From assembly GCA_005800655.1 (NCBI GenBank), contig SYEV01000087.1, forward strand, positions 1-64,000: a stretch of 64,000 bases of DNA, written 5' to 3'. The DNA is from Bacteroidota bacterium. Lineage in GTDB: Bacteria; Bacteroidota; Bacteroidia; Chitinophagales; Chitinophagaceae. Below, piece by piece: positions 61,640 to 62,920 of this stretch (positions are counted from its first letter, which is position 1; every line of letters begins with the position of its first letter). A model generated the notes under the pieces. It saw only the letters and a list, made by a program, of their open reading frames with translations, had not been told where the DNA came from and did not search any database. A program made the translations under genes and the position numbers.

Positions 61640-61664
61640 GAGCAACCTATTTTTAATTACTATG

Positions 61665-61691
61665 CAACATCGACTTTTTAGGTCGATGTTG
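61665..61691 (+). terminator. Rho-independent terminator-like hairpin
   Basis: Perfect 10-bp stem CAACATCGAC / GTCGATGTTG, loop TTTTTAG. Confidence 0.7.
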
Positions 61692-61791
61692 TTGTTTTAG
61701 CCACTTTTTACTAACTAATTTCACTATTTTAGATGAAAGTTTCGCTGATTACTAAATTTTAATCAATTGAATATCAATGATTTAATTCATA

Positions 61792-61840
61792 ATTAGTAAA
61801 AAACTAATCAAATTAGTAAAAAAATACTAAATATTTTAGT
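61792..61840. promoter_or_regulatory. Phased TTAGT/ACTAA inverted-repeat array upstream of recA (candidate operator)
   Basis: ATTAGT-N5-ACTAAT at 61792-61808, TTAGTA-N6-TACTAA at 61813-61830, further half-site TTAGT at 61836-61840. Confidence 0.65.
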
Positions 61841-61858
61841 TTATTAACACTTTATCCC

Positions 61859-61866
61859 TATCTTTA
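61859..61866 (+). promoter_or_regulatory. -7-like element (TATCTTTA) for recA
   Basis: One mismatch to TAnnTTTG, 35 bp upstream of the recA ATG. Confidence 0.5.
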
Positions 61867-61900
61867 CATAAATATTAAAGAAAACATAAAACGATTAACC

Positions 61901-62920
61901 ATGAGCAACCCAAATGTAGAAAAATTAAAAGCCTTAAAATTAACAATCGATAAAATTGATAAGGATTACGGCAAAGGAAGCGTGATGATGATGAATGAGC
62001 GCAGCCAAGAACCTCAGGAAGTAATTTCAACAGGTTCCATTGGTTTGGATACAGCCTTGGGTATTGGTGGATTACCAAAAGGAAGAATCGTAGAAATATA
62101 CGGACCAGAATCTTCAGGTAAAACTACTGTTGCAATTCATGTAATTGCAGAAGCACAAAAGAAGGGTGGAATGTGTGCAATTATAGATGCGGAACATGCA
62201 TTTGATAGTGCCTATGCAAAAAGATTAGGCGTTGATGTAGATAATTTATTAGTCTCTCAACCTGATTATGGTGAGCAAGCTTTAGAAATTGCAGATCGCT
62301 TAATATTATCAGGTGCCATTGATGTATTAGTAATAGATTCTGTTGCAGCACTTGTTCCAAAAAGTGAATTAGAAGGTGAGATGGGCGACTCGAAAATGGG
62401 GCTACACGCGCGTTTGATGAGTCAGGCATTAAGAAAATTAACAGCGACTATTAATAAAACAAACACGATTTGTATTTTCATTAATCAGCTTCGTGAAAAA
62501 ATTGGTATCGTTTTTGGTAACCCAGAAACAACTACTGGCGGTAATGCATTAAAGTTTTATGCTTCAGTTCGTTTAGATATTAGAAGAATGGCACAAATTA
62601 AAGATGGTGATGAAGCCATCGGAAATAGAGTAAAAGTAAAAGTGGTTAAAAACAAAGTGGCACCGCCATTCAGAGCTGCTGAGTTTGAAATTATTTTTGG
62701 AGAAGGAATTAGCAAGATTGGAGAAATTATTGATATGGGCGTAGAATTAGAGATCATACAAAAATCAGGAAGCTGGTTTAGTTATGATGCCAACAAACTA
62801 GGACAGGGCCGCGATTCAGTAAAAACAATATTACACGACAATCCAGAAATGGCCAATGAAATTGAAGCTAAGATTAGGGCTAAAATAGCCGCTAATGTTG
62901 AGGCTGCCGCTTCAAAATAG
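61901..62920 (+). CDS. recA: Recombinase RecA
   Basis: [78 protein letters not shown]. Confidence 0.98.

Follow-up and report, generated by a model that had tools for sequence, protein, structure and literature searches.

The region upstream of recA in the window (the whole stretch of 64,000 nucleotides that was analysed here) contains an accumulation of TTAGT and ACTAA elements, which raises the question whether these elements form an operator and, if so, in which register it should be read and by which regulator. The window belongs to a metagenome-assembled genome (MAG) of 1.9 Mb (116 contigs, 88% complete). A MAG from a lake encodes an identical recA product; the loci that follow next in similarity carry the labels uncultured Bacteroidetes, Sediminibacterium or Chitinophagaceae. 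In a preliminary description the elements had been taken as five phased half-sites plus outliers, built from the palindrome unit TTAGT-N5-ACTAA. The analysis given below leads to the conclusion that the array is the damage-response operator of recA, which had been sensed correctly and was read in the wrong register. More explicitly, it is in all likelihood an SOS operator region made up of two 15-bp ACTAA-N5-TTAGT palindromes for dimers of a CI-like S24 LexA.

Register of the operators upstream of recA

All motifs and coordinates that had been described agree with the window sequence: ATTAGT-AAAAA-ACTAAT at 61792-61808, TTAGTA-N6-TACTAA at 61813-61830, a single TTAGT at 61836-61840 and ACTAA at 61710, 61714 and 61751. 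In the other register, the same stretch holds two perfect palindromes, ACTAATCAAATTAGT (O1) and ACTAAATATTTTAGT (O2), whose exact CTAA-N5-TTAG cores (61804-61816 and 61827-61839) precede recA at a distance of 23 bp from centre to centre (Table 1). Within the window the motifs exceed chance in both registers: TTAGTN{3,8}ACTAA is found four times against 0.55 expected, and CTAAN5TTAG four times against 1.17 expected, two of these four being adjacent.

It is very improbable that the TTAGT and ACTAA half-sites, 5 or 8 bp apart and in a phase of around 10 bp, constitute the operator of a different filament-like or multimeric regulator. The starts of the half-sites are indeed 10, 10, 13 and 10 bp apart, and these numbers were given correctly, but they originate from two 15-bp operators that lie 23 bp apart plus a stray TTAGT at 61793. 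A genome scan for TTAGTN{3,8}ACTAA gave 30 matches versus 81 for the reversed-pattern control, so that this register is not enriched; the true unit is CTAA-N5-TTAG, the register that is conserved at 95/106 recA promoters. Moreover, when the recA upstream regions of five congeners are aligned, O1 and O2 appear as islands of identity, with O1 unchanged except for one spacer base; neither the TTAGT at 61793 nor any of the ACTAAs at 61710, 61714 and 61751 is conserved. The array thus reduces to two operators.

Table 1. Features of the recA upstream region and of the gene for the predicted repressor
Feature	Position	Strand	Remarks
Terminator-like hairpin of the upstream secreted-protein gene	61664..61692	+	13-bp stem, T-rich after; fold -17.1 kcal/mol, z -5.7
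Distal SOS operator O1, ACTAA-TCAAA-TTAGT	61803..61817		Genome-wide rare exact match; most recA promoters of the family have their distal site between -21 and -24 bp
A-rich 8-bp spacer	61818..61825		Sets the 23-bp centre-to-centre distance; length kept, sequence varies between promoters
Proximal SOS operator O2, ACTAA-ATATT-TTAGT	61826..61840		Perfect core in 95/106 recA upstream regions; probable overlap with the recA -33 region
Putative recA -7 element TATCTTTA	61859..61866	+	Starts +33 from the O2 start
recA	61901..62920	+	Pfam RecA E=6.3e-137, RecA_C; ATG at 61901
LexA-like repressor (HTH_3/HTH_19 + Peptidase_S24)	C46:6511-7287		Two sites just upstream of its ATG

Recurrence of the motif at SOS genes and the associated repressor

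The exact sequence ACTAAN5TTAGT occurs only six times in the whole genome (1.9 Mb), twice at recA, twice at the lexA-like repressor gene, once at umuDC and once inside an ORF. The latter site (C79:14601) lies within an unrelated membrane-protein ORF and was set aside as chance. When the ends are relaxed to R/Y the doublet of umuDC becomes complete, and of the 11 RCTAAN5TTAGY sites that are then found genome-wide, six form doublets at exactly the recA, lexA and umuD promoters. Other core SOS genes that share the motif are umuDC in the own genome, and dinB, dnaE2, an imuA-like gene and the genes for a radical SAM protein and SRAP in relatives.

The comparison of recA upstream regions proposed earlier clearly favoured an operator. 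A perfect CTAA-N5-TTAG core was present within 200 bp upstream, usually 70-105 bp before the ATG, in 95/106 non-identical recA regions, compared to 0.75% of shuffled sequences; the regions that lack it include the Bacteroidales and Flavobacterium outgroups. Perfect sites were likewise found upstream of lexA (28/29) and umuD (29/30). Given that related promoters share ancestry, these counts do not represent independent events; the operator argument leans mainly on the recurrence at non-homologous genes. The array region is AT-rich and simple, as a coincidence without function would have it. Nevertheless, such a coincidence is hardly conceivable and is refuted in practice, considering that 5/6 exact genome sites fall at three SOS promoters and that the sites are conserved over many genera while the flanks diverge. 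The proposal that the elements represent the operator of a recA regulator, or SOS box, is corroborated by the fact that the sites recur elsewhere in this genome, at lexA and umuDC, and across the family in front of recA. The box had also been considered possibly lineage-specific; it is indeed the SOS box of the Bacteroidetes, but it is not new, as it corresponds to the non-canonical LexA motif CTAA-N5-TTAG (PMC8565304, main text).

According to the main text of that study (NAR 2021, PMC8565304), the non-canonical LexA of Bacteroidetes (CI-like, S24) binds to CTAA-N5-TTAG, as established in related species by EMSA and mutagenesis, and a change in either dyad was enough to abolish EMSA binding to a single palindrome. 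The same text describes a mitomycin-induced response under this LexA by RT-qPCR, names the Chitinophagaceae as having large CTAA-N5-TTAG regulons and mentions several motif instances per promoter, whereas it makes no mention of cooperativity, oligomers, helical phasing or doublet geometry. Dyad, 5-bp spacer, the targets recA, lexA and umuDC, repressor architecture and bacterial family are the same as in the box described there; the difference is that here, at most targets, the boxes come as doublets 22-24 bp apart.

The genome encodes two S24 proteins, the UmuD of the umuDC operon and a 259-aa HTH_3/HTH_19 + Peptidase_S24 protein near surE. The canonical winged-helix DNA-binding domain of LexA (PF01726) had no match in this 88% complete genome, while control genomes do match, and with PF01726 absent a canonical LexA regulon was ruled out. 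The functional role and the autoregulation are shared with the canonical system and its box (CTGT-N8-ACAG in E. coli), but the motif differs and the DNA-binding domain is unrelated. Judged from its sequence, the 259-aa repressor matches the non-canonical LexA of Bacteroidetes. Close relatives are present in most of the 119 family genomes, and the elements AAAGYL, GDSM and VYKR, conserved in 31 aligned orthologues, are those expected for the Ala-Gly cleavage bond and the Ser/Lys dyad of a predicted self-cleaving repressor. The protein ends in a coiled-coil-like heptad helix (L017:1384-2160; consensus WDVNQLAGMVNNLQEQVSSLKKKLN), and within the last 25 residues every a/d position is hydrophobic in 29/29 orthologues examined. 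A PDB sequence search with the repressor returned matches to the HTH domain only. The C-terminal helix of the non-canonical LexA is recorded in the main text of PMC8565304 as being of unknown function.

Spacing of the doublets and further targets

The distance between the two sites is restricted to a narrow range. A second recA site with at least 7/8 core bases was found at -23 in 51/95 cases, at -22 in 12, at -21 in 6 and at -24 in 5, hence up to 74/95 when the four offsets are summed, compared to 0.11% per offset elsewhere. No partner site was found in 11/64 named recA loci. The lexA doublets are located at about -40 and -16 from the ATG, their two sites being 22, 23 or 24 bp apart, and the umuD partner lies at exactly -23 in 13/29. 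A blind search for pairs with gaps of 4-24 in the 119 family genomes recovered pairs in 70 genomes, and among the pairs listed 65/75 had a gap of 9-11 bp (centre distance 22-24) versus 10.7 under a uniform expectation; with gaps of 25-54, matches were found in only 20 genomes. The search over the class (157 genomes) gave only 17 matches, with spacings that are scattered outside the family. At the stringency used, the exact doublet is thus mainly a feature of the Chitinophagaceae. The second site is mostly 22-24 bp off at recA, lexA, umuD, dinB, dnaE2, imuA and the 2H-phosphoesterase genes, and as the gap sequences differ between genes, the shared distance cannot have come about through descent from a single promoter. 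At recA and umuD the distal site is frequently degenerate. In one genus (G007/G109), which carries a divergent LexA (53-54% identity), part of the doublets have gaps of 5-8 bp (L242:1470-1500, L243:1520-1553, L254:1505-1538), as if the spacing shifted along with the repressor.

Targets beyond recA, lexA and umuD were identified by reading the gene that adjoins each pair. In relatives these include dinB, dnaE2, an imuA-like gene (identified by eye, without a Pfam match) and genes for a radical SAM protein (gap 8), SRAP and 2'-5' RNA ligase-like 2H phosphoesterases. In several genera, doublets lie directly upstream of the genes for the latter 2'-5' RNA ligase/LigT-like proteins (L238:1515-1551, L245:1509-1542, L246:1526-1561, L248:1510-1545, L256:1534-1569); PF13563 was confirmed for three of the 2H phosphoesterase genes, and one doublet is divergent to umuD. 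The 2H phosphoesterase is not mentioned as a target in the main text of PMC8565304, and a weak search of the own genome, run with no positive control, did not find a relative. The gene is a possible new member of the SOS regulon. In one genome a doublet (L249:1528-1564) precedes a ParB-like gene, again named by eye, which may belong to a mobile element and be controlled by the SOS response.

Promoter layout and a proposed mode of repression

The hairpin upstream of the operators is likely a terminator, suggesting that recA forms its own transcription unit. In 45/64 named recA loci a TAnnTT[TC][GA] element begins at +28 to +40, counted from the O2 start. We take this element to be the putative -7 box, on the basis of the Bacteroidetes promoter consensus and of the positional conservation. 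Given that it starts mostly 33-35 bp past the operator start, the operator is expected to overlap with the -33 region, and this layout points to repression of recA by occlusion.

In the mechanism that we propose, each 15-bp palindrome would be bound by one dimer of the CI-like S24 LexA, whose gene lies elsewhere in the genome, and the bound repressor would cover the -33 region and thereby block transcription. RecA on damaged single-stranded DNA would then induce self-cleavage of the repressor at the Ala-Gly bond, which would release recA, umuDC and lexA itself. Occupancy of the operators and repression in this organism are predicted from the sequence data. With a distance of 23 bp, or around two helical turns, the sites would present the two dimers on the same face of the DNA, where they would probably bind cooperatively, joined perhaps via the C-terminal heptad helix. 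The multimeric regulator that had been proposed is plausible in this form, as dimers and perhaps a cooperative tetramer. Judged purely from the geometry, cooperative binding at O1-O2 is somewhat favoured, and the chance that the helix serves to join the dimers may be put slightly below even.

Tandem CI operators with a centre spacing of about 23-24 bp are known from OR and OL of phage lambda. The arrangement described here resembles these in the tandem operators at 23-24 bp centre distance and in the combination of a CI-like HTH with an S24 repressor, but the locus is no prophage and has two sites instead of three. In addition, the C-terminal heptad helix is a feature of the repressor found here and is not known from lambda CI. 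In the literature nothing was found on the lambda spacing, nor on SOS-linked 2'-5' RNA ligases. We tentatively suggest that the SOS operator of the Chitinophagaceae is a lambda-like 22-24 bp doublet on which a CI-derived LexA may act as a cooperative tetramer via its C-terminal heptad helix, giving a sharp, phage-like switch. There is also a considerable possibility that these are real SOS boxes of which the two sites are bound independently, the 23 bp reflecting the promoter layout or the room that adjacent dimers need to avoid a clash. The lexA gap contains a TAnnTTGC-like element that is conserved and plausible as a -7 box, and that could set the spacing, and other SOS systems have double sites without known cooperativity. 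However, 22-24 bp recurs at recA, umuD, dinB, dnaE2, imuA and the 2H genes, with gap sequences and promoter-relative positions that differ, and a second site, though degenerate, has been kept at precisely this distance, which is in keeping with cooperative binding.

The biology of the locus is mostly known, and the doublet spacing and the heptad helix add testable new detail. The data place the lineage firmly in the Bacteroidetes SOS system, with the right operator assigned. Together, the constant distance within the doublets and the conserved helix at the C-terminus provide a concrete, testable proposal for how a repressor that is thought to be derived from phage CI may act on chromosomal promoters. 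If true, a cooperative tetramer on the doublet would provide a sharp, phage-like switch for a chromosomal SOS response.
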